Shown in pieces: positions 3,694-43,941 of a stretch of DNA of 64,000 nucleotides. Source of the stretch: Shewanella seohaensis. GTDB lineage: Bacteria; Pseudomonadota; Gammaproteobacteria; Enterobacterales; Shewanellaceae. Every line of letters begins with the position of its first letter. Position 1 is the stretch's first letter. The stretch spans positions 3,038,001 through 3,102,000 of the forward strand of contig NZ_CP104900.1 of assembly GCF_025449215.1 (NCBI RefSeq), written 5' to 3'. The translations under genes were made by a program, and so were the position numbers. Below the pieces are notes generated by a model. That model worked only from the letters and a program-made list of their open reading frames with translations, did no database searches and was not told the DNA's origin.

Positions 3694-3730
3694 AATAGTC
3701 ACCGAGAAGCCCTTCTTGGTGACTATTTTT
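3694..3730 (+). terminator. Rho-independent terminator after GH97 gene
   Basis: A stem of AATAGTCACC (3694-3703) pairs with GGTGACTATT (3718-3727). The loop can pair further and a T-tract follows. It lies 38 bp after the GH97 stop codon. Confidence 0.8.
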
Positions 3731-3941
3731 ATTATTGAGCCACTTCGTTACTTACTAAAGTTACTTGTTTAAGCTACTTTGTTTAAGTTCCTTTATTTTA
3801 GTCACTTAGTTTGCGTTACAGCGCCTAACAACCGTTGGCGGATTGCATGTGAGCTGTACCATTGCCCTCCACTACTGAGTCACACGCGACACGGATGCAA
3901 ATTGCATTAAGTTAGCTTAAGCTAAACTCCCCCAATGCTTA

Positions 3942-5380: not shown

Positions 5381-6388
5381 TTAGTTTAAGGTCAACGCGA
5401 CAATTTTAAGTGGATGATTATCATCGAATGACGGGAAATCCTCATGGGGATCGAGCCAAGTGTGCTCAGTCACACCTCGGCCTTGTTTTTCAACGCAGCG
5501 TACTAGGCTGTCAAACCAATCTTGTCGGTCTACTTTGGCGACATTATTGCAACACACGATTGTGCCACCGGCCCTAGTTGATAATAAGGCGGGTTTAAAT
5601 AACCCTTGGTAATCATTAACTAAATCGACAATTCCGAAGGCACTTTTGGCATAACGAGGAGGATCGAGGAACACCAGATCAAACTGGGTTTGCGGCAATT
5701 TAGGGTAACTCGGCAATTTTTGATTGCGACGTCCGCCCACATTTAAACCTGCTAATTGGCGCAGGGCCGGAAACGCATCGCTCTGCACAAATTCACATAC
5801 CTCTGACACTTGGTTTAACTCGGCATTGGTTCGCCCAGCGGCGAGTGCAAAGGAGGAAAAGTCAACATTCACAACCCGTTCTGCACCGCCCATCGCAGCT
5901 GCGGTTCCAATACCACAGGTATAAGAAAACAAATTCAGCACGGTTTTATCTTGGCTGTGTGCCCGCACATATTCACGACCAATACGCATATCAAGAAATA
6001 GCAGCGGATCCTGTCCTTCGTGGCGCAGCTTAGTGGTGAATTTGATCCCATTTTCCTGCATCACCAACTCCGCACAGGCAATATCATCCAGCTCAGGGCT
6101 TAATGCATTGAGCACGCGGGAATGACCAGCGGAGCGATCGTTATACACCACAGGCAGAGCCACTTCTTGGGTGAGCACTTCCACAATTTCAGCTAATTCC
6201 GCAGCGGTTAAGGTTTGGTGAAAACTCTGCACTAACCAATTATCGCCGTAGCGATCGACATTCAAGCCACTGACACCTTCGACTGTGCCATGGAATACCC
6301 GAAAACAATCGGTATGGTCTTGTTCTGCTTGCAGTAAAAAATCATGGCGCTTGGCCAGAGCCGTCGATAACAGCGTTTGAATAGACAT
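5381..6388 (-). CDS. Class I SAM-dependent methyltransferase, RlmI/RlmK-like
   Basis: A 335-residue protein resembling the catalytic half of the rRNA large-subunit methyltransferases. The region FHGTVEGVSGLNVDRYGDNWLVQSFHQ resembles the EEA/PUA-adjacent fold. FLDMRIGREYVRAHS and VLNLFSYTCGIGTAAAMGGAERVVNVD hold the SAM site, and FDLVFLDPPRYAKSAFG carries the DPPR catalytic motif. It probably modifies a base in 23S rRNA or another RNA. The exact position is not determinable here. No N-terminal PUA domain is seen. Confidence 0.8.
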   Translation of the reverse strand: MSIQTLLSTALAKRHDFLLQAEQDHTDCFRVFHGTVEGVSGLNVDRYGDNWLVQSFHQTLTAAELAEIVEVLTQEVALPVVYNDRSAGHSRVLNALSPELDDIACAELVMQENGIKFTTKLRHEGQDPLLFLDMRIGREYVRAHSQDKTVLNLFSYTCGIGTAAAMGGAERVVNVDFSSFALAAGRTNAELNQVSEVCEFVQSDAFPALRQLAGLNVGGRRNQKLPSYPKLPQTQFDLVFLDPPRYAKSAFGIVDLVNDYQGLFKPALLSTRAGGTIVCCNNVAKVDRQDWFDSLVRCVEKQGRGVTEHTWLDPHEDFPSFDDNHPLKIVALTLN

Positions 6389-35139: not shown

Positions 35140-35376
35140 ATGTCGAGCTTAGAAGTGTGGATCATTATTATTTTGGTGGTCGGTGTGATTGCCAGCAATC
35201 TTGCCGCACTGAAATACAGTGCAAAATTCAAACTGCCACAGTTTGGTCAGCACGATAAAGAAAAGCAGTTAAAGACCGATAATCGCGCGAACTCCTCACC
35301 CGATGCCGATAAGTCTGCGGATACGGCGATTGAAAATCGCGATAAATCAACCCAAGTTGAGCAAGATAAACCCTAA
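35140..35376 (+). CDS. DUF2897 small membrane protein
   Basis: A 78-residue protein with one N-terminal membrane helix (VWIIIILVVGVIASNLAAL) and a charged, disordered tail (KEKQLKTDNRANSSPDADKS). It follows kdsB by 28 bp with AAGGAG upstream, so it is in the kdsB unit. Function unknown. Confidence 0.85.
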   Translation: MSSLEVWIIIILVVGVIASNLAALKYSAKFKLPQFGQHDKEKQLKTDNRANSSPDADKSADTAIENRDKSTQVEQDKP

Positions 35377-35408
35377 GCGAGTCGCTTTACTCCTCTGATT
35401 TATCAATC

Positions 35409-35433
35409 AAAAAGGCGCAATAGCGCCTTTTTT
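35409..35433 (+). terminator. Terminator at end of kdsB unit
   Basis: AAAAAGGCGC (35409-35418) pairs with GCGCCTTTTT (35423-35432), followed by T. It marks the end of the core gene block just before the cassette array. Confidence 0.9.
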
Positions 35434-35664
35434 GTGGGTGAGAAATAACGTTTCGGTATAGCTTTGCGTATACGCCCAATCTTTCAAAGCAAAGATGAAG
35501 TATTGAATTATCAAGAATAATACTCGCCACTAAAATGCGTCAGGATAAGAGCGGGCCTTACGTATTGAAGTTTCATAAAAGCCGAAGCAAGAGCGCGTGG
35601 AAAGGGACAAAAGCGTGTCAGGACGTCAGCTGTATCAAGTGAATTTCGGGTAAAAATATCTATG

Positions 35665-35755
35665 GGTTAACGCCCCAATTTAGCGAGGAAAGCCGCCCTG
35701 CGGGTTGACGTCACCGCCAGCGCTTTTGGCTGGCGATAAAATTTGATGGTTAGCA
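35665..35755 (-). repeat. attC site 7 (last of array)
   Basis: On the minus strand it opens with TGCTAAC, overlapping the stop codon of the GNAT cassette, and ends in GGGGCGTTAACC. Arms pair as TAAC..CAAATTTTATCG with TAAC..CCAATTTAGCG. An inner stem GCCAGC/GCTGGC sits in between. It closes the downstream end of the cassette array. The boxes are less canonical than in the other sites. Confidence 0.6.
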
Positions 35756-36172
35756 GACGGCACGGCTCATGTAGTAAAACCGCTCATATTCACTTGTTAA
35801 ACCAAACCCTTGTCTCTTATACAAATGAACGGCAGGGCTATTTTTAAACACTTTAAGCTTCAAAATGTGAGAGCTATGCTCTTTAGCCAGACGTTCTGCC
35901 TCAGCAATAGCAATTGAGCCAATCCCACGATTCTGGTAACTCTGATCCACTTGCAAATCTCGTAACCAGCACGCTTCAGTGTCAAAAGATAATCTAACGA
36001 CACCAACAAGCTTTTCTTCAAACAAAATATCAAAGTTCACAAGTTCTTGTGTCATTTGCTCAATCTGAGCTTCATCCCAATCTACAGAGTATTGTGCATA
36101 ATATGGCTGCATATTCGACAGAGTAAAATATGCTGCTTTTGCTAAATCCTTAGCTGGTCTAAATGTAACCAC
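35750..36172 (-). CDS. GNAT acetyltransferase gene cassette
   Basis: A 140-residue N-acetyltransferase. The acetyl-CoA motif is QVDQSYQNRGIGSIAI (QxRGxG), followed by AVHLYKRQGFGL. The N-terminus (MVTFRPAKDLAKAAYFTL) is typical for this fold. The stop codon lies inside the attC at 35749, and the start is close behind the preceding attC core, as in integron cassettes. The substrate is unknown. Such cassettes sometimes modify antibiotics or toxins, but nothing here shows that. Confidence 0.88.
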   Translation of the reverse strand: MVTFRPAKDLAKAAYFTLSNMQPYYAQYSVDWDEAQIEQMTQELVNFDILFEEKLVGVVRLSFDTEACWLRDLQVDQSYQNRGIGSIAIAEAERLAKEHSSHILKLKVFKNSPAVHLYKRQGFGLTSEYERFYYMSRAVC

Positions 36173-36292
36173 TAGTCTAGTCTCCTAACGCCCCAAGCAG
36201 GGGCAAATTTTAAACTGGCTAAATTTAAACTGGCTAAAGTTAGGAGCGAAACGACGGGAGCCAGCTTAAAATTGTCCCGTTAACTTGGCGCG

Positions 36293-37609
36293 CTGGGGGA
36301 TCCCCTCATAATTTAGGTCTTCCAGCGTCATGAACTAAGTTTATATATTCGACTAATGCCCAGCGAAAAATTGCCTCCTTTACCGGATATTTGTCTCTTT
36401 TACGTACTTCCTTTCCAAGTCTAACAATTGATAGCACTGCCCGCTGTCTCACGGTATTGGCTTGAAAATATCTTTGCCATCCAAGGTGTTGTGCCGCTAA
36501 CCCAATACACCATAACACGATTTCAGCTAGCATAGCGATGAGCAGCAATACATCATATCGCTTTGGACAACGGCTGCGGCTTTGTCTGAGGCCCATGCCA
36601 TATTGCGGACTTTTTAAATCGCGGAAGGTTTCTTCAATTTGCATTCGTTTAGCATACAAATCGACGACCTTCGAAGGGCCAAAGTAGTCCGGCGGTAAAT
36701 TGGTGGCGAGTAGCCAAGGCTCTTTACTCCCTAAGCTGTAACTCTTTTGTGCGGTGTGATTTCGCCCAGCCTTAGAAGAACGTTTATCCTTACGCAGCTT
36801 AGGTTTAGCTTTAAACAAGTGCAGGCAACATTGTAGTGGAGACTTGCGTGCTAACTTGACGCTACCTATGTATTTCGCGGTTGAATTCGCTTTAGGATAG
36901 AGGGATTTATTTGACTGCCATGATGTTTGGCCGTTGAGCATAAAACTGACGTCACCGCGAACTCTCCCTAGCCAAAACCAACCATGGCGTTCGACTTCCC
37001 TAAACCAAGTATTGCGATAACCTGCATCGGTGATGATGAGCGGGCAGCATCCTGGCGGCAATACGTTAGCAAGCTCAGCTAAGAAAGTGTTATGACTGCG
37101 TGGGGCATTGTAATCTTCAAACAGAAAAGTGCGTTCGTACAAAGTAATGGAGCGACCTTTAACACTGATTGATGCGCGTAAGGTCATCATTCGCAGTTGC
37201 TCGCGTACATCAGACCAATCCACAAGAATAATGGGCATCGGATTTGCGCCGCAGAGATATTGTGCATGCCATTGATAAATAGCGAACTTATCTTTGATAA
37301 CATGTAAATTTCCGAGCAGTCGGTCAATGCGCTTGATATTGTGTTTTGGTGCAACATTCCCCGTTATGTTCCGTCCTAACTGGGTTAACGAGAGTTGATT
37401 ACCATCGAGTAAAGACTCGGTAGCAACCATCAGAGAATTAAGGCGTTTTTGATGTATTTGAGGGCATTGTTTTTGAGTAAATCGTGTAATATGTCGATAT
37501 TACGCATGATGTTGGATCTAGTAGGTTTTTGGCGAAATTGATTAGATCAAACAGCATCATGCGTGTCTACTTATTTGAATCCCATCGAATTTATCTGGGG
37601 ATTCACTAG
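36293..37609 (-). mobile_element. IS10-like insertion sequence (IS4 family), 1317 bp
   Basis: Ends are imperfect inverted repeats: CTGGGGGATCCCCTCATAA at the left and, read inward, CTAGTGAATCCCCAGATAA at the right, resembling the IS10 ends. A perfect 9-bp duplication, CTTGGCGCG, flanks it (36284-36292 and 37610-37618), the size typical of IS10. The single transposase gene is inside. The duplicated bases are part of an attC site. Confidence 0.93.
36306..37507 (-). CDS. IS4-family (IS10 group) transposase, frameshifted
   Basis: A DDE transposase of about 400 residues. It shows LVDWSDVREQ, IITDAGYRNTWF (catalytic Asp) and the YREK signature YAKRMQIEETFRDLK (Glu). The N-terminus MRNIDILHDLL starts at 37507; the frame then breaks at the TT of 37438-37439, where one more base gives KNALNSLMVATESLLD. 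This matches the same stretch of IS10 transposase (LNSLTLACHALLD). If the break is genuine the copy is inactive. Confidence 0.88.
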
Positions 37610-37618
37610 CTTGGCGCG

Positions 37619-38235
37619 TTATATTTTGATAAACGCAGATATGGAGTTATCCCATGAATACTCATGCTCATAGTCTTCTATATCTAGTAATGAAATAAAC
37701 CTATCACATTGGTTTAAAACTGCACCTAGAGATACGTAATTCCAGTTTTCACCATTTTTTAGGTACTCTTCAGTTTCTAAACCAGAAAATAAAGTCCAGC
37801 CACTATAATTCTCTTCCTCTTCTGATGGGGGCTCGCGATACAATTGACCAACGGGTAACCCATCTTTTAATACTTGTGAAGTTACATAACATCTGGGTAG
37901 GTACTTTTCGACAATATCTTCTTCAGTTTCTTCTATGTCGGTTTGCATTATGTGCTTAGCTTCAAACTCAACTAGATCCTGATATTTAATATCTGGTATG
38001 TAACTTGGGTCATTGTCCAAGGTACCTTTATAGCAACCATTGTTAGCTTCAGTAATAATTACCCACATCCTTTCAGCCGTCCAACCATGCTCATTTTCAA
38101 CACCACATTTAAACATTAGCTTTACAATATTTCCTTCTTTCAGTTGCTTGATCACCGAACTTGAAGGTAAATAAAAAGTGTATGGAGCCCCTTACCGATA
38201 ATAGTAACATCTTCCAATGACCAAGTTTTACTCAC
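37619..38235 (-). CDS. DUF2314/DUF2185 protein gene cassette, frameshifted
   Basis: A cassette protein of about 205 residues. The GTG start at 38235 has GGAG upstream. A first half like DUF2314 (GAPYTFYLPSSSVIKQLK, TAERMWVIITEANNGCYKG, LDNDPSYI) is joined to a DUF2185/Imm33-like half (YVTSQVLKDGLPVGQLYREP, GWTLFSGLETEEYL, FISLLD). The frame breaks in the C4 run at 38188-38191; a fifth base joins TIIGKG to APYTFYLP. Imm33-like domains occur in contact-toxin immunity proteins, so a protective role is possible but unproven. Confidence 0.75.
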
Positions 38236-38242
38236 GATATCT

Positions 38243-38341
38243 CCATAACGCTTTGCTAATGGGCAGCCGAAACGCAGTGTAGGCTGTCCCGTGGAGGCCA
38301 CGCTTTTAGTGGCCGGAACGAAATTAAGCAACTTGTTATGA
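38243..38341 (-). repeat. attC site 5
   Basis: On the minus strand it begins TTCATAAC (overlapping the previous stop codon) and ends AAAGCGTTATGG. Arms pair as CATAAC..TTGCTTAAT with CATAAC..TTTGCTAAT. A GGCCACTAAAAGCGTGGCC stem lies inside. About 99 bp. Confidence 0.75.
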
Positions 38342-38671
38342 AGCATTTAATAGCTTCGCCATCTTGTTGATTTTTATAATGTCTATTTCTCCTACCAGAA
38401 CCGGATTGGCTAAGGCGTAAATATAGTCTTCGATCTCTGCATAATTTAGATCGTCCCTACACTCGATAAAATTAGCCCAAAGTTCTAGATCATCAGCCGT
38501 AATTTCGTTCAAGAGAAACTTATCTAATACATTGGCTAAATCTTCTTTTGTAACCTTAACCAACTCAACTTCACTGTCGAACGGGAAGCTTGCTAAAGCC
38601 GAATAAGCAAACTCTCTTTTGTCTCCGAATCTGACTATTTGTTTAAGAGCTTCAACTCGATCCATGTTCAT
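38336..38671 (-). CDS. Unknown cassette protein, 111 residues
   Basis: A small acidic, all-helical-looking protein (MNMDRVEALKQIVRFGDK, then DDLELWANFIECRDDLNY and ALANPVLVGEIDI). No Pfam family is firmly recognised. The pattern (W-A-x-x-I-E-x-R-D-D, then L-A-N-P) recurs in small immunity-like proteins I know from other genomes. It starts right behind one attC and its stop overlaps the next. Function unknown. Confidence 0.7.
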   Translation of the reverse strand: MNMDRVEALKQIVRFGDKREFAYSALASFPFDSEVELVKVTKEDLANVLDKFLLNEITADDLELWANFIECRDDLNYAEIEDYIYALANPVLVGEIDIIKINKMAKLLNAS

Positions 38672-38674
38672 GCT

Positions 38675-38802
38675 TCATAACGCCCAATTAAGGGGTGAAC
38701 AACGCCTCCACCCAACCTAAAGCATTGTGCCATAAACACTAAATTTGAAGTAAAAACAAAAATGCCAAGCGTTGTGAATCCCTCTTAAATTGCTTGTTAG
38801 GC
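38675..38802 (-). repeat. attC site 4, Vibrio-repeat (VCR)-like
   Basis: A 128-bp site. On the minus strand it opens GCCTAACAAGCAATTTAAG and closes CCCCTTAATTGGGCGTTATGA. Internal AGGGATTCACAACGC pairs with GCGTTGTTCACCCC. The layout and sequence are those of Vibrio super-integron repeats. The first box GCCTAAC fits the RYYYAAC consensus exactly. Confidence 0.93.
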
Positions 38803-38817
38803 TACCAGTTGGGAAAG

Positions 38818-39531
38818 TCACTTTTGTTCTGGTAATTGACCAATTCTATCTAAAAATTTGGCTAGTCCCGGCCATTCCACACTATTGATTCTGTTTTCTC
38901 TGTTCTTAAAGAATTCGTCAAAACTTTTTCGTTCTTTATTGGTCATTTCGGGAGTAAGTTCAGCTAATTTAGGTGAAAGTGAAAATCCACTTATATTCAA
39001 TCTTTTCCCTCTGACAGCATCATTGAAATCCAAAAATAGTTCATACGTAACTTCTAACTTGCCTGGTAGCAAATCCCACTCAAGTACCTCAAAAGCAATC
39101 CCATTATCTGGAACAATTGATTTATGGTGCAATATACAATGCCTTATTTTTCTAAGGTCTCCCATTAATGGACATTCGATATACCTTGCTTCATACCCCG
39201 TAACTTTGGCTACACGGTGGCGATATACCTCGTCCCATAATGAATACATTGTGCATAACAATGACTTTCTAATTTCATTGGAAAAGTGGCTATTTTTCCC
39301 ACTTTTCGTAATAAACTCTTTTGTGTTTACCCTAGCGTGCATCTTTGGATTATCTTCGCAATCAGAAGCAATCCAAGTTTGATGCCCTTCCGTGAGACTC
39401 TGCTTTGCTAGCTCTAAACCTGCCACCTCAATACCTTTGGTCGCAAAATGCATACAAGCAACAAATTCATCGAATGTATTTATGAACTCACTCATTACAT
39501 TGTTAACGTCTTCGCTCTGTCGCTTTGTCAC
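38818..39531 (-). CDS. Unknown cassette protein, 237 residues
   Basis: A soluble protein with no recognised family. Features: an N-terminal helical part (MTKRQSEDVNNVMSEF), TKSGKNSHFSNEIRKSL, LWDEVYRHRVAKVTGY and LRKIRHCILHHKSIV. The last stretch, with R..N/H-H residues, recalls HEPN or AbiV/RiboL-PSP-HEPN-like sequences, but the match is weak. It is flanked by VCR-like attC sites on both sides. Confidence 0.65.
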   Translation of the reverse strand: MTKRQSEDVNNVMSEFINTFDEFVACMHFATKGIEVAGLELAKQSLTEGHQTWIASDCEDNPKMHARVNTKEFITKSGKNSHFSNEIRKSLLCTMYSLWDEVYRHRVAKVTGYEARYIECPLMGDLRKIRHCILHHKSIVPDNGIAFEVLEWDLLPGKLEVTYELFLDFNDAVRGKRLNISGFSLSPKLAELTPEMTNKERKSFDEFFKNRENRINSVEWPGLAKFLDRIGQLPEQK

Positions 39532-39568
39532 TAAAACTATCCTTATTTTGCTATAAACTTCACAAGTA

Positions 39569-39695
39569 GCCTAACGCCGCGTTAAGTAGTGAGCAACGCT
39601 ACCACCGAACCTAAACCATTGTACCGTAAACACAAAAGCCAATTCATACCCAAAATGCCACGCGTTGCGAATCTGTCTTTAACGCTTTGTTATAA
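39569..39695 (-). repeat. attC site 3, VCR-like
   Basis: A 127-bp site. On the minus strand it opens TTATAACAAAGCGTTAAAG and closes CTACTTAACGCGGCGTTAGGC, a perfect GTTRRRY core. GATTCGCAACGC pairs with GCGTTGCTCAC inside. It closes the toxin-antitoxin cassette. Confidence 0.93.
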
Positions 39696-39702
39696 CACAG
39701 TT

Positions 39703-39990
39703 TTACACGTCATCTTCAGACAGTATTTGGCGACAATTACGAACTGTTAGCACGCGGATTTCGTGACTTAAGCTGTAGATAATCCGATAGTGACCAAAGA
39801 TGATTTCACGATAGTTCGTATGGGGCATTTCAGGAACAAAGCGCCCCATTTCAGGCATGCTTCCAAGTAGTTCGGTTTTATCAAAAACTTCATTTACCCA
39901 CTTTTCTGCCGCAGATGGATTATCCAAAGAAATAAACTCCGCTGCATCGCCTAGCTTCTGAAGCGCTAATGGAGACCAAACTACTTTCAT
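39703..39990 (-). CDS. ParE/RelE-superfamily toxin (cassette)
   Basis: A 95-residue type II toxin. It has MKVVWSPLALQKLGDAAEFI, PEMGRFVPEM, YREIIFGHYRIIYSL and VRNCRQIL, the standard ParE fold order. It follows the antitoxin gene with a 4-bp overlap (ATGA). ParE members poison gyrase and RelE members cleave mRNA; the ParE branch fits better. The stop codon is just before the attC. Confidence 0.9.
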   Translation of the reverse strand: MKVVWSPLALQKLGDAAEFISLDNPSAAEKWVNEVFDKTELLGSMPEMGRFVPEMPHTNYREIIFGHYRIIYSLSHEIRVLTVRNCRQILSEDDV

Positions 39991-40268
39991 TTCTTAATGC
40001 GCCCCAGTACTTGAGCACGAGCATCATCATTGGAAACACCAAGGCCTGAAGCTAATTGAGCTTCAGCTGTGCGCATTTCTTCTAGTAATTCGATTTTCTC
40101 TTGCATTGCTTCATACTCTGCAACATCAAGAACAACAGCAACACCTTTACCACGCTGTGTAATGACCAATGGACGGCGAGTCTCATTGATTTGTTTGATG
40201 TAAGAAGCAACACCTGCACGAAATTCAGATAACGGCTGAATATCTTGATCGAAATGAATACGACTCAT
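39987..40268 (-). CDS. Phd/YefM-family antitoxin (cassette)
   Basis: A 93-residue antitoxin starting at 40268 with GGAG upstream. The N-terminal Phd/YefM fold is seen as IQPLSEFRAGVASYIKQINE, RRPLVITQRGKGVAVVLD, AEYEAMQEKIELLEE. The C-terminal toxin-binding tail follows (AQLASGLGVSNDDARAQV). It overlaps and precedes the toxin gene. Such pairs stabilise large integron arrays by killing cells that lose them. Confidence 0.92.
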   Translation of the reverse strand: MSRIHFDQDIQPLSEFRAGVASYIKQINETRRPLVITQRGKGVAVVLDVAEYEAMQEKIELLEEMRTAEAQLASGLGVSNDDARAQVLGRIKK

Positions 40269-40345
40269 ATTGAACTCCAATTGGTACAAAATAACGTACA
40301 GATAATAGTTCAACTAACCGTTTTGAGCAAGAAGTTGATTCTGTG

Positions 40346-40417
40346 TTATAACGCCGCGCTCTGCGGAAATTTAGGAGCGCCAGCGAGTAAATTTTCCGTA
40401 GCAGCGCCTTGTTATAT
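40346..40417 (-). repeat. attC site 2
   Basis: A 72-bp site. On the minus strand it begins ATATAACAAGGCGCTGC and ends GCGGCGTTATAA. Arms GCTACGGAAAATTTACTCGC and GCGCTCCTAAATTTCCGCAG pair well. It lies immediately after the stop codon of the 486-residue cassette gene. Confidence 0.88.
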
Positions 40418-40418
40418 T

Positions 40419-41878
40419 TCATTTCCCTTTCGCTCTCGATATCACACCCATCATGGAGTGAGAAAATTGTCCAATTTCTGCTTTTTCATCGAGCTTATCG
40501 GAAATATATTTACCTGTTGCAGCCACCCCACCTAGGGGAAGTAATGCACCCAAGAAAGGGGCAAGAACTGGAAACATCGTTACAGCTAGTGTGCCACCAG
40601 CAATTAAAGCCGTGTATTTATGTTTGGCTTGATATTTATCATTAAGTGATGAAATCTGCTTCTCGTGTTTCGATATGGCTCTTTCAATGTGAGAGCACAC
40701 TTCGGCAGCAACATACCCTAAATCTTCGAGATTGGTATTAGGCAAACTGTTAACTAAATCTCTTAGCTCTCTCCTAAATTCAACATTCTCATCGGTCTTC
40801 CTCAATGCTACGAGCTGCGCGTCTTTGATATTGGCCAAATAATCAAGCCTTTTAGACGTAAGAGACTGTAGAATTGCTGAGGTAGATGGATCAAATGAGG
40901 CAACTTCACCAGCAGATGAATTTTTCATACTTGCGATAAGTTGGTAATAATGCGCCTGTGCGTTTACACACAGAAATGGATGACTTCTTAGCTCATCGGA
41001 ATTTTCCAGTAAATGGTAGTTTGGCATAATGCGCTCAAAAATAGCGTTGGTCACAACGCTAGCATCACCTTTCGAAAACAGCTCATTACACCAATCTTCT
41101 GACCTCCATTGCCTCATTTCTGCCTTGTAATTTTCTAACTCTACTTTTAGAGGCTCCCCAGGTTCAGATCCGGGTGAGACAAAGAGCCTCGCTCCTTCAA
41201 TTTTTTCAAAGTACAGGTCAGGGTATTTTGTAGCAAACTCCAAAATATCTTCAGGATGCGTTATACCTGAGTCTACATAATGCGAAAATACATCGGTGAT
41301 AAGCTGAATGCTATTTTCTTGCGTTTGCTGATCATATTCTTCAAGTGACTTCTCAAAACTTGGAAATACAAAAAATGGTGGGAGATCAAATTCATCTCCT
41401 TTTAGATCACACAAATGCAATATGAAAAATGCCATCTGAAGCGGGATAACATGACTAAACTTCTCTTCGTCTCGTTTTTCTCTAGCCATGGCATTACGGG
41501 GTCTGGAATTAAAACTGTATCGGAATATAGAAGTGATTTGCGTGTAGCATTTAACTGTGTTTCTAGGAAACGACTGCTTCCGCCCAAATTCAATTTACAT
41601 GCATCTAGTTTCTTAGCTGCGCTAAAGGCTTTTCCACCTTCTTCCGAATATAGTTTCTTAAGTTCCGTTTCGAGAGTTGAAAATGCCACCATAGCACTTT
41701 CAGCCCGGCTAGAGCTTTCTCTTAAACTAACAGCCATTCTTTGAATAGATTCCGAAAATCTATCCAGAGGTGAAAAGTCACGTGGCAGACGTCCTGTCAC
41801 GCTGAGGAAAAACTCGGTCAATATCTCAAAGTATCTATCTTGATAAATAATTAAGTCGTGTAATTCCTGCTGACTCAC
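40419..41878 (-). CDS. Unknown cassette protein (~486 residues) with hydrophobic C-terminal hairpin, frameshifted
   Basis: One protein split by a missing A in the run at 41475-41479; adding it joins VMPWLEKK to RDEEKFSHVIPLQM. The N-terminal part is mixed helical (LIIYQDRYFEILTEFFLSV). The middle is charged and largely helical. Close to the C-terminus a probable coiled coil (RAISKHEKQISSLNDK) precedes a glycine-rich hydrophobic hairpin (LAVTMFPVLAPFLGALLPLGG). No family is recognised. The layout suggests a membrane-associated or membrane-active protein. It has lower GC than neighbouring core genes, as cassettes usually do. Confidence 0.65.
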
Positions 41879-41896
41879 TTAAGTACTCCGATTGAA

Positions 41897-41956
41897 ATAT
41901 AACTTCTTAGTATTTATGCGCTGCGCTGTTTGCAGGGCATAAATCGCTTGTTGGAC
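41897..41956 (-). repeat. attC site 1 (first recognisable)
   Basis: A 60-bp site. On the minus strand it starts GTCCAAC (good RYYYAAC) and ends in GAAGTTATAT. CGATTTATGCCCTGC pairs with GCAGCGCATAAATAC. The next cassette gene begins 18 bp on. Confidence 0.8.
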
Positions 41957-42113
41957 TTGGCCGCTGCTGCCACATCCGTGTAAATGGGTATAAATGATGC
42001 TATAGGAATTTGCTTTTTTGCGGTAGCGGTTTTTATACAGTTTAATAGGTAATAGGTTGATATCGTTTTACCTTTCTCGTTCTTTCACGCTTATTTTTTA
42101 CTGATGAATTGCC
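41957..42113 (-). other. ORF-less segment between attC 1 and a possible eighth site
   Basis: 157 bp without a credible reading frame. At its upstream edge the minus strand reads TCGTTAGATGG, with GTTAGAT (42114-42120) matching GTTRRRY. It may be an ORF-less cassette or the remains of the attI side. No pairing partner is intact. Confidence 0.35.
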
Positions 42114-42207
42114 ATCTAACGACTCAAAGCTCCAAGGAATACACCTCCCCTCGGAGTTGCCGCAGGGCGAATAGACAAATTGCGTGAGTCTCGGCATGGA
42201 TAATGGA

Positions 42208-43570
42208 ATGGACCCATCCACTTTTAATCGGCCTCACAATGGGCCACGATGTAGTCGCTAAAACTCATCAGAAAGAGGACGGGTCCACCTATGAAGATTA
42301 CTACAATCGGTTTAGATATCGCAAAGTCTGTTTTTCATGCTGTTGGTGTCGATAAAGCTGGCAAGGTACTCAAAAAGAAAATGCTTAGACGCAAAGACTT
42401 GCTGCCCTTTCTCGCTCAAATTGAGCCTTGTCTGATTGTGATGGAAGCCTGTAGTGGCGCAAATTACTGGGCCAGAGAATTTGAGCTGTTGGGCCACAGC
42501 GTCAAGTTAATTGCTCCTCAATTTGTCGTGCCTTTTCGGCAAGGTAACAAAAATGACTATAACGATGCCTTAGCCATCGCTGAAGCTGCGCAGCGACCCA
42601 ACATGCGGTTTGTAAAACCTAAAAGCGTCGAGCAGCAAGATGTGCAATTGCTCCACCGTATGCGGGAACGATTAACTAAGCAATCAACAGCCTTAATCAA
42701 CCAAGTGCGAGGCATGTTAGCAGAATACGGCATCGTGATAGCCAAAAGTAAATCGGCTTTTAAAGTACAGTTCCCTGAGATTTTGGCTAACGAAACTAAT
42801 GCGCTGACTACCAAAGGTCGGGCCATTTTTTATCAGTTATATGAAGAGTTTAGTGATATAGAAAAACGGCTTAAGGGTTGTGATGCTCAAGTACTCACCG
42901 AAACGAAAAACAATGTGATTTGCCAGCGTTTAGAGACTATCCCTGGTATTGGTCCTGTCACTGCTACCGCCTTTTATGCCGCCGCTGATGATGGTAAAGA
43001 CTTCACTAATGGCAGGCACTTTTCAGCTTGGTGCGGCTTGGTTCCCAAGCAACACAGTAGCGGAGGTAAAGATAACCTCCTTGGGATAAGCAAGCGGGGA
43101 AATGCGTATTTACGCACCCTGTTCATTCACGGCGCCAGAGCGGTGTTGCAACACAGCCAGAATAAGCAAGATAAGTTTAGTTGCTGGGCAATCCAGTTAG
43201 CAGAGCGCCGAGGCTTTAACCGAGCTTGTGTGGCCGTCGCCAATAAACTCGCGAGAATGGCATGGGTTATCGCAGCGCATGACGAAGAATATCGACTTCC
43301 AGCATCGTGCTGAATAGATTCAATAAACGTTAATAATTAACCAACCAGCAAGTTGCTAAGACACTTGAATTGATGATGAGACAGTCAGACTGATCTACTG
43401 AAAACCTTAGCTCGGCATAGGCTCATAATAAAGCCGCAGGGATGATAAGGACAGTAGAAGCAGATATCCATCAGGGCCAGAGGAATCCCTCAATAACAGG
43501 CCGAATATATGGGTGCAATGAACTCTTCTCAAAATTGATATCGAATGTCTTGCAAACCGGATGGGTCCAT
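42208..43570 (+). mobile_element. IS1111-group insertion sequence (IS110 family)
   Basis: A 12-bp perfect subterminal inverted repeat, ATGGACCCATCC at 42208-42219 and GGATGGGTCCAT at 43559-43570, brackets a single intact transposase gene. Subterminal repeats are the mark of the IS1111 group. True ends lie a few bases outside. Just beyond, CTCGGCAT (42190-42197) and ATGCCGAG (43573-43580) suggest insertion in a palindromic target. Confidence 0.85.
42291..43313 (+). CDS. IS110/IS1111-family transposase
   Basis: A 340-residue DEDD transposase, intact. The N-terminal RuvC-like domain shows GLDIAKSVFHAVGVD and VMEACSGANYWAREF, with GNKNDYNDALAIAEAA as the third acidic motif. The C-terminal transposase-20 domain has LETIPGIGPVTATAFYAA and AWCGLVPKQHSSGGK with its conserved Ser. 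AAAGAGGACGGG precedes the start. Confidence 0.94.
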   Translation: MKITTIGLDIAKSVFHAVGVDKAGKVLKKKMLRRKDLLPFLAQIEPCLIVMEACSGANYWAREFELLGHSVKLIAPQFVVPFRQGNKNDYNDALAIAEAAQRPNMRFVKPKSVEQQDVQLLHRMRERLTKQSTALINQVRGMLAEYGIVIAKSKSAFKVQFPEILANETNALTTKGRAIFYQLYEEFSDIEKRLKGCDAQVLTETKNNVICQRLETIPGIGPVTATAFYAAADDGKDFTNGRHFSAWCGLVPKQHSSGGKDNLLGISKRGNAYLRTLFIHGARAVLQHSQNKQDKFSCWAIQLAERRGFNRACVAVANKLARMAWVIAAHDEEYRLPASC

Positions 43571-43941
43571 ATATGCCGAGCTAGCTTTCGCAGGTGCAGG
43601 GACGCATCCTTCGGAAGCGGTAGCAAATTTGTCAATGAGCCCAAGGGGCTTTCAACTCCGTTGGGGGCGTCTTGGTGCATCCAAGGAGGATAGGACGAGC
43701 AGTCCTCCTTGGTCGGGTGTGGGGTGAAGCCCCGCGACTTTGATTTTGATTAAGCATTGAAGCTACAAAAAGAAGGGATGCATAACTTCTAAGTCGAACC
43801 ATCAACTTTTCTATAGGCAGAGCTTTACTTGTCCAATTTCCCTTTAAACTGCGAAACACAATTTGGGGCTGAAGCGAGTCAGAAAGGCGATAGCGAACTA
43901 AACCCCGCCTATGCCACATACGGATTTATCTTCGTCATAAA

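Follow-up and report, generated by a model that had tools for sequence, protein, structure and literature searches.

A 64-kb window of the Shewanella seohaensis genome (positions 3,038,001 to 3,102,000 of a 4.75-Mb single contig) carries an integron gene-cassette array that has no integron integrase gene (intI) in the window. The array is real. About a dozen units of its kind were found in this genome, itself included. A unit is built from an attI-type start (sequence S1 in the window, sequence S2 elsewhere), one to six cassettes and a constant 70-bp end, which we call A. This order recurs in the S. seohaensis genome, in its relatives and on plasmids, and several complete integrons with intI have the same outer ends. 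These observations suggest that the array is an integrase-less integron unit and not a random cluster of cassettes, and that orphan arrays can be copies of whole integrons minus the integrase. A known label, CALIN (cluster of attC sites lacking an integron integrase), here covers a family of integron units that have no integrase, are scattered over the genome and have their ends in common. We consider it likely that these units are intI-deleted copies of a mobile integron element, moved or copied as whole units, whose cassettes are exchanged in trans. Loci are designated below by L and same-genus genomes by G, each followed by a number.

Six attC sites on one strand

We scored attC sites with a position-and-pair model trained on 54 attC sites. 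Candidates were collected from 12 intI loci of other same-genus genomes, leaving aside S. seohaensis itself and its close relative G015; 54 of 58 were kept, three being dropped as off-strand and one for an odd end. In a leave-one-out analysis these training sites had a median of 47.5 bits, with 21.1 bits at the 10th percentile (n=54). Six sites reached at least 20 bits in the 64-kb window, all of them on the minus strand and within 4.8 kb (35,665-40,417; Table 1). Beyond them no place on either strand of the 64 kb reached 14 bits, the next best scoring 13.5. Dinucleotide shuffles of the window gave one match of at least 20 bits in 20 shuffles, and a second run of 60 shuffles again gave one, with none at or above 28 bits. 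The last attC of the array is degenerate and has a clear relative in another locus (L063 7526-7616, 32.9 bits).

Folding was less telling than the score. Of five window sites folded as single strands (those starting at 35665, 38243, 38675, 39569 and 40346), two gave z-scores of -3.09 and -2.95, and the remaining three ranged from -1.13 to +0.15, which is weak as proof of an attC. With folding only moderate, the match to attC rests on the boxes and the pairing of the arms, not on folding energy. Rfam at its gathering scores gave no matches in the window. With a covariance model made from joined attC arms (R1), a single site of the array was recovered at E 0.033, along with part of a second one at 0.66. 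Having been built from joined arms, R1 is probably unable to span long loops.

A first-pass annotation of the window, made from its letters alone, had listed seven attC-like sites here. Six of them hold, at 18.6 to 61.8 bits, when the attC model is run on the minus strand; the seventh, at 41899-41958, scores -6.1 at best and turned out to be something else (see below). The polarity of the genes, all on the minus strand, and their close spacing to the attC sites were confirmed as described there. A profile search of the whole genome likewise bore out the absence of an integrase from the window: the only TIGR02249 match over the cut-off lies at 4,532,677, about 1.45 Mb from the array, so that there is no nearby intI. 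CALINs are defined by IntegronFinder as at least two attC sites with no nearby integrase, and the label given in that annotation is apt, with six attC sites and no intI in the window. A complete integron has intI adjoining attI and cassettes, and the window has no intI match.

The start and the end of the array

The seventh site is the end of a conserved start sequence of about 590 bp, S1. S1 does not score as an attC (-6.1); it heads the array in the place held by S2 in other units, for which reason we call it attI-like. By analogy, S1 as a whole would be an attI-type landing site. S1 is uninterrupted in two other loci of the same genome (L063 and L064) and is broken in the window by an IS110-family element, whose limits we set from the interruption of S1. 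Its inner part was also found in L063, L038, L039, L042, L177, L202 and L204, among which are loci of other genomes.

At the opposite side of the array lies A; in other genomes many alignments to the query break off at its position 70 or 71. When the S. seohaensis genome was searched with S1, blind to A, four matches were obtained, one of them of only 32 bp (L062, which also has S2), and A stands downstream in the same orientation at all four. Searches with S1 and with A, together with alignment, led to twelve places with A in this genome, at about 0.78, 1.20, 1.39, 2.44, 2.59, 2.68, 3.07 (the window), 3.34, 3.54, 4.18, 4.22 and 4.53 Mb; the array of the genome's own intI was found via intI. 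Two features that had not been selected for recur at these places: a scored attC abuts A in 10 of the 12, and S1 or S2 lies upstream of A, in the same orientation, in 9 of the 12. In L085 and L089 an attC-like sequence before A can be seen by eye. Cassettes stand between the constant halves at a core G/TTA.

A pattern of A with at most two mismatches gave seven matches in the S. seohaensis genome, all of them arrays (7/7). With up to three mismatches there were 18, nine in arrays and nine not, and a control pattern also gave nine.

Two other views of the array were rejected. That it had been cut off from the genome's own intI by rearrangement was given up once its ends turned out to be dispersed, and that the window held the ancestral distal end of the integron of the genus was given up once A was found at other places in the same genome.

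S2 belongs to a lineage of integrases

In the 20-kb loci around intI, S2 adjoins the integrase gene in 7 of 13. These are all seven loci in which intI is 74-98% identical to the S. seohaensis copy, and S2 is beside intI in none of the six in which identity is 41-65%. Thirty shorter intI loci, several of them from the same places, contain ten with an intI at least 74% identical, and S2 is present in seven of these ten. Of the other three, L020 and L027 have no more than about 200 bp of sequence beyond intI on the side in question, which is not the case for L014. From its position beside intI in the lineage of at least 74% identity we take S2 to be the attI region of that lineage, L014 excepted. 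A CTG-N10-CAG box, probably a LexA box, was seen by eye upstream of S2 in L047 and also in the intI-less units L065 and L066.

The S. seohaensis intI matches TIGR02249 over positions 20-315 (368 bits), and its reading frame is broken near the N-terminus (L006 6286-8561), so that the local integrase is probably inactive now. An insertion sequence (IS), presumably of ISL3 type, separates it from S2 in L006. The intI match of G015 likewise starts at TIGR02249 position 20. The two integrons around these genes (L006 852-8662 and L047 9894-15080) align in three blocks with identities of 99.7, 98.9 and 99.0%; two IS have inserted between the blocks in the S. seohaensis copy. Although the chromosomal sites of the two integrons differ, each ends at TGCCCC on its left (L006 8662) and at TTTTGTCCC on its right (L006 852).

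The left motif, TTTTGCCCC or a close form of it, was seen by eye about 100 bp past the intI stop codon in six of 12 loci (L006, L015, L016, L022, L027 and L047). It is altered in L011 and L020, and is not at that place in L012, L013, L014 and L018. Directly outside the S. seohaensis intI integron, at L006 8813-9334, there is a second, partial S2 with one unknown open reading frame (ORF), an arrangement that looks like two units in tandem. G015, G039, G024 and G045 also have this partial S2.

The same sites hold different contents in relatives

The array lies at a locus between kdsB and the nap genes. The arrays of G015, G039 and G024 at this locus begin with S2 where the window has S1, and their cassettes are other ones; the left chromosomal edge and the end A are those of the window. 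Their last cassette, which encodes a GNAT protein, is 93-95% identical to that of the window, and the Imm33 cassette also occurs in G039. The nap-side flank is common to the three relatives up to the outer edge of S1 and differs inside. In the other eight relatives no array and no S1, S2, A or nap flank was found in the 19.5 kb beside kdsB. Five of them have their nap flank on a different contig from kdsB, and in G042, G061 and G036 it shares the contig at a distance of at least about 26 kb. The genes of the array are thus not ones that stand in the same order, without variable neighbours, in most Shewanella genomes: three relatives carry other cassettes, and in eight no array was found in the 19.5 kb beside kdsB.

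This comparison gives no support to a second proposal of the first-pass annotation, namely that an integrase once lay upstream of the array at higher coordinates, where an IS1111-group element now sits. G015, G039 and G024 have S2 there, and no intI was found in the stretch; the element itself sits inside S1 and not in the place of an integrase. As an observation apart, of the 12 genomes compared only the four array-bearing ones have nap next to kdsB (35376-43862 in the window, L120-L130 in the relatives), which may mean a rearrangement.

A second site gives a comparison between a complete integron and integrase-less units. The S. seohaensis intI integron lies beside mrcB and ppiC. What G015 and G024 have here are S2-attC-A units, and their left edge is that of the integron. 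About 230 bp separate this edge from S2 in G015, which leaves no room for intI; in G024 the distance is 1.1 kb, and there is no intI among the matches listed there. One site therefore holds an intI integron in S. seohaensis and S2-cassette-A units in two relatives. At the same site neither A nor a scored attC was found in 11 kb of G039, and one copy of the motif is read through on the left.

The pairing of start and end extends to other genomes. In the matches listed for six complete relatives (those of S2 being few for G061 and G042), S2 lies within 10 kb upstream of A on the same strand for at least 17 of 36 A matches. In 2000 random placements this number averaged 0.29 and never exceeded 3. 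We also examined 18 loci of relatives chosen for a match to A, mostly with S2: S1 or S2 was present in 16 and a scored attC in 14, the exceptions being L189 and L190 for the start and L189, L190, L203 and L204 for the attC.

Among the matches listed, the A part itself is matched in at least 33 of 97 genus genomes, S. seohaensis included, and of these 33 genomes 13 have an intI over the cut-off and 20 have none over it. Arrays with end A therefore persist in genomes without such an intI. Larger tallies (37 genomes; 15 of 37) also take in matches to a neighbouring repeat alone. Empty S2-A repeats were considered as landing sites and set aside: four pattern matches occurred in three of the 97 genomes, none of them with the start directly joined to A.

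The units on plasmids

S2 was found in 25 plasmid records, 14 from Shewanella, four from Vibrio, two each from Pseudoalteromonas and Citrobacter, and one each from Moellerella, Enterobacter and E. coli; the query with A matched 13, of which 12 in the A part. Structure was read in four of the 25 S2 records, and five further plasmid stretches were read for their flanks. The order S2-cassettes-A, in one orientation, was present on three plasmids (L179, L180 and L181): an IncC plasmid of Enterobacter hormaechei, where the cassettes are fosG and an acetyltransferase, a Moellerella plasmid with dfrA1, and pS19501 of S. baltica. An S. xiamenensis plasmid has a partial S1 with attC and A and, separately, S2 with attC. 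No protein is annotated as an integron integrase in the four examined records, and the tyrosine recombinases encoded in L179 and L181 give only weak matches to integrase models.

Three S. baltica plasmids (L181, L183 and L184) have the right edge TGTCC followed by the same flank, with different interiors. No A and no scored attC were found in L183 and L184, and L184 has two short S2-like matches. Next to umuDC, the plasmid elements L183, L184, L186 and L187 have similar edge motifs around cargo without a scored attC, annotated as AbiH, AbiGi, Abi and HigA family. Repeats outside the units were also noted in L175 (after position 700), L180 (about 3700-3900 and 5480-5700) and L186 (about 6000-6300).

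Origin of the units

These results are best explained by the loss of intI from a mobile integron. The units would have arisen from a complete integron through this loss, and the whole unit would be moved or copied as one piece between two ends in direct orientation, the left one being TTTTGCCCC or a similar motif and the right one TTTTGTCCC. Cassettes would be inserted and swapped at the attI-type start by an integrase supplied in trans, either resident or transient. Such exchange may be the reason why the same locus holds different cassettes in four genomes.

A reading that goes further, and that we hold to be less probable, places the units among a wider group of elements that insert site-specifically and end in sequences such as TTTTGCCCC and TTTTGTCCC; an integron would be one kind of cargo for them. 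Cassettes would then enter units and units would move whole, adding a second layer of mobility. This possibility is based on umuDC-side edges on Shewanella baltica and Providencia plasmids, which by eye bound defence-like cargo without a scored attC.

Several observations weigh against the derivation from a mobile integron that has lost intI. No moving enzyme was identified. The sharing of A is partly by construction, since the arrays of the S. seohaensis genome were mostly found through A, and attC sites in this genome were looked at only around the places found, so that arrays without A may exist. Three of the 12 units of the genome (L085, L086 and L088) have neither S1 nor S2; no attC was scored in L085, and that of L089 is one gene away from A. 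On the side of the start, S1 was never seen beside intI, and L014 has no S2 match in the 1.5 kb upstream of an intI that is 76% identical to the S. seohaensis one. A simple pattern finds the left motif in five of 11 units checked, and by eye it is in six of 12 intI loci and altered in two more. The unoccupied mrcB site of G039 is clean on the left only, its right flank being different. S. seohaensis is without the G015 intI integron at the orthologous place, where the flanks common to both genomes break off about 180 and 210 bp before the unit edges are reached; a clean empty site is thus not obtained. A start joined directly to A was found in none of the 97 genomes with one pattern and at most three mismatches.

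Against these points we weighed four other explanations. Integron copies could have been spread by homologous recombination or segment duplication between repeats, whether IS or intergenic, with no mobility dedicated to the unit. Other intergenic repeats do adjoin many units (as an example, the part of the query beyond position 65 matches alone), yet the edges lie at similar motifs at unrelated sites in the S. seohaensis genome, in G015 and on plasmids, and we regard this explanation as unlikely.

Rather less probable still, to our judgement, is an ordinary CALIN, that is, a remnant or by-product of an integron that was cut off by rearrangement or formed by stray insertion and whose flanks mean nothing. 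Six real attC sites without intI are what it would leave, and CALINs and single cassettes are common in the genus according to the parts of PMC9229058 consulted. Meaningless flanks are hard to reconcile with the four of four S1 matches in the S. seohaensis genome that, found blind to A, have A downstream, with a pairing of S2 and A in relatives far above chance, or with the same ends on plasmids of other genera.

We give a similarly low standing to the idea that IntI put cassettes into a pre-existing dispersed repeat with an attG-like core, S1 or S2 and A being its two halves, so that the repeat and not the integron was dispersed. The position of cassettes between constant halves at the core G/TTA is as this predicts, and insertion at attG is a known idea (attG is named in the abstract of PMC12901181). 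A chance repeat, however, would not be the attI region of complete intI integrons, as S2 is, several of them with the same outer ends, and no empty repeat was found in the 97 genomes with one pattern and at most three mismatches. Least probable of all is that the units lie inside, or are cut-down forms of, a Tn7-like transposon whose ends are the conserved ends: L175, L180 and L186 hold, by eye, repeats of the form GTTTCAAACTTTATTGTC outside the unit, with edges such as TGTCCTCCGACA, which may resemble Tn7 ends. Inspection by eye of the nap and mrcB edges on the chromosome showed no repeats of this form (no search for tns genes was made), and the edge motif is direct, not inverted.

Cassettes and insertion sequences of the array

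The six cassettes of the window encode a toxin-antitoxin pair, an Imm33 protein, a GNAT acetyltransferase and proteins with no match over the cut-off (Table 1). In the first cassette the two ORFs, 41402-41878 and 40419-41489, overlap in different frames and are possibly one broken gene, or two genes. PADLOC gave only weak matches on the proteins of the window (E 0.0016 and 0.014). Elsewhere, the cargo of the units includes an ABC-3C domain protein (CTD9; L087 8883-9422) and a NADAR protein (L066), and that of the S. seohaensis intI integron a methyltransferase that matches a defence family below the cut-off. For many of the cassette proteins the scans returned nothing informative.

An IS4-family element splits the attC of the Imm33 cassette and is flanked by a 9-bp duplication, CTTGGCGCG, at 36284 and 37610. 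At the same locus in G039 the attC of this cassette is intact (L121 17501-17601, 54.9 bits). The authors of a survey of integrons in Shewanella, published in 2022, state that they found no attC interrupted by an IS (PMC9229058).

Table 1. Features of the cassette array in the window, from its end to its start. attC scores are from the position-and-pair model; z is from single-strand folding.
Feature	Position in window	Strand	Evidence
End sequence A, about 70 bp, ending TTTTGTCCC	35604-35672	-	Aligned with 11 other places in the same genome
Last attC, degenerate	35665-35755 (model's own span 35665-35802)	-	21.5 bits; 18.6 bits with likely 5' end 35755
Cassette 6, GNAT acetyltransferase; last cassette, common to four genomes at the locus	35750-36172	-	PF00583, 56.9 bits
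attC split by IS	36183-37627 (arms 36183-36292 and 37610 to about 37627)	-	28.3 bits, one-side part at 36183-36298
IS4-family IS, 1317 bp, inside attC of Imm33 cassette	36293-37609	-	Transposase NF033591, 408 bits
Cassette 5, Imm33 / DUF2314 protein	37619-38155	-	PF09951, 60.9 bits; 98.9% identical copy in G039, same locus
attC	38243-38341	-	45.9 bits; z -3.09
Cassette 4, 111 aa protein	38336-38671	-	Pfam: none over cut-off
attC	38675-38802	-	61.8 bits; z -1.09
Cassette 3, 237 aa protein	38818-39531	-	Pfam and PADLOC: none at E 0.1; one NCBIfam match far below cut-off
attC	39569-39695	-	51.5 bits; z 0.15
Cassette 2, Phd/YefM antitoxin (39987-40280) and ParE toxin (39703-39990)	39703-40280	-	Pfam PF02604, 64 bits; PF05016, 59 bits
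attC	40346-40417	-	48.4 bits; z -2.95
Cassette 1, two overlapping ORFs in different frames (41402-41878, 40419-41489)	40419-41878	-	Pfam and NCBIfam: none at E 0.1
S1 inner part, ending in core of the seventh site (41899-41958)	41899-42201	-	88% to S1 of L064; hairpin z -5.64
IS110-family element inside S1; transposase ORF 42291-43313	42202-43566	+	NCBIfam NF033542, 362 bits; IS1111 group in first-pass annotation
S1 outer part; left edge of unit at nap flank about 43855-43862 (TTTCAGCCCC)	43567-43861	-	93.7% to S1 of L064 (43567-43770)

Significance and comparison with known systems

CALINs are common and often treated as debris. If integrase-less arrays move as units and retain fixed ends and an attI-type site of their own, they would be landing platforms for a passing integrase, and a broken or absent intI would say little on whether cassettes can still be exchanged. 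This would help to explain the persistence of arrays in genomes without an intI over the cut-off (20 of the 33 listed with A). The same units are on plasmids of Enterobacterales, and the two examined carry resistance cassettes.

Among the closest known systems are Shewanella chromosomal integrons of the SonIntIA type (PMC9229058): S2 is the attI region of an intI lineage close to that of S. seohaensis, and the units' left motif is present in several such integrons. Unlike them, the unit of the window has no intI and has a different start, S1.

Mobile integron units bounded by miniature inverted-repeat transposable elements (MITEs) have inverted transposon repeats on both sides. They resemble the units described here in that an integron was moved between constant ends without a transposase of its own (an example is PMC3934969). 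Here, in contrast, the edge motif is short and in direct orientation, as seen by eye at the mrcB and nap edges, and the ends belong to the integron itself. Insertion of cassettes at attG sites likewise places cassettes at many genomic positions without a local intI; such insertion needs no constant start or end of tens to hundreds of bases.

CALINs and SALINs (single attC sites lacking an integron integrase) are likewise made of attC and cassettes without intI and are common in Shewanella. The parts of PMC9229058 consulted report many of both in the genus and describe no common start or end, and in the titles and abstracts of open-licence PMC literature we found no description of CALINs with an attI-type start and a constant end. 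The arrays described here differ from them in this respect: nine of the twelve that end in A also have an attI-type start.

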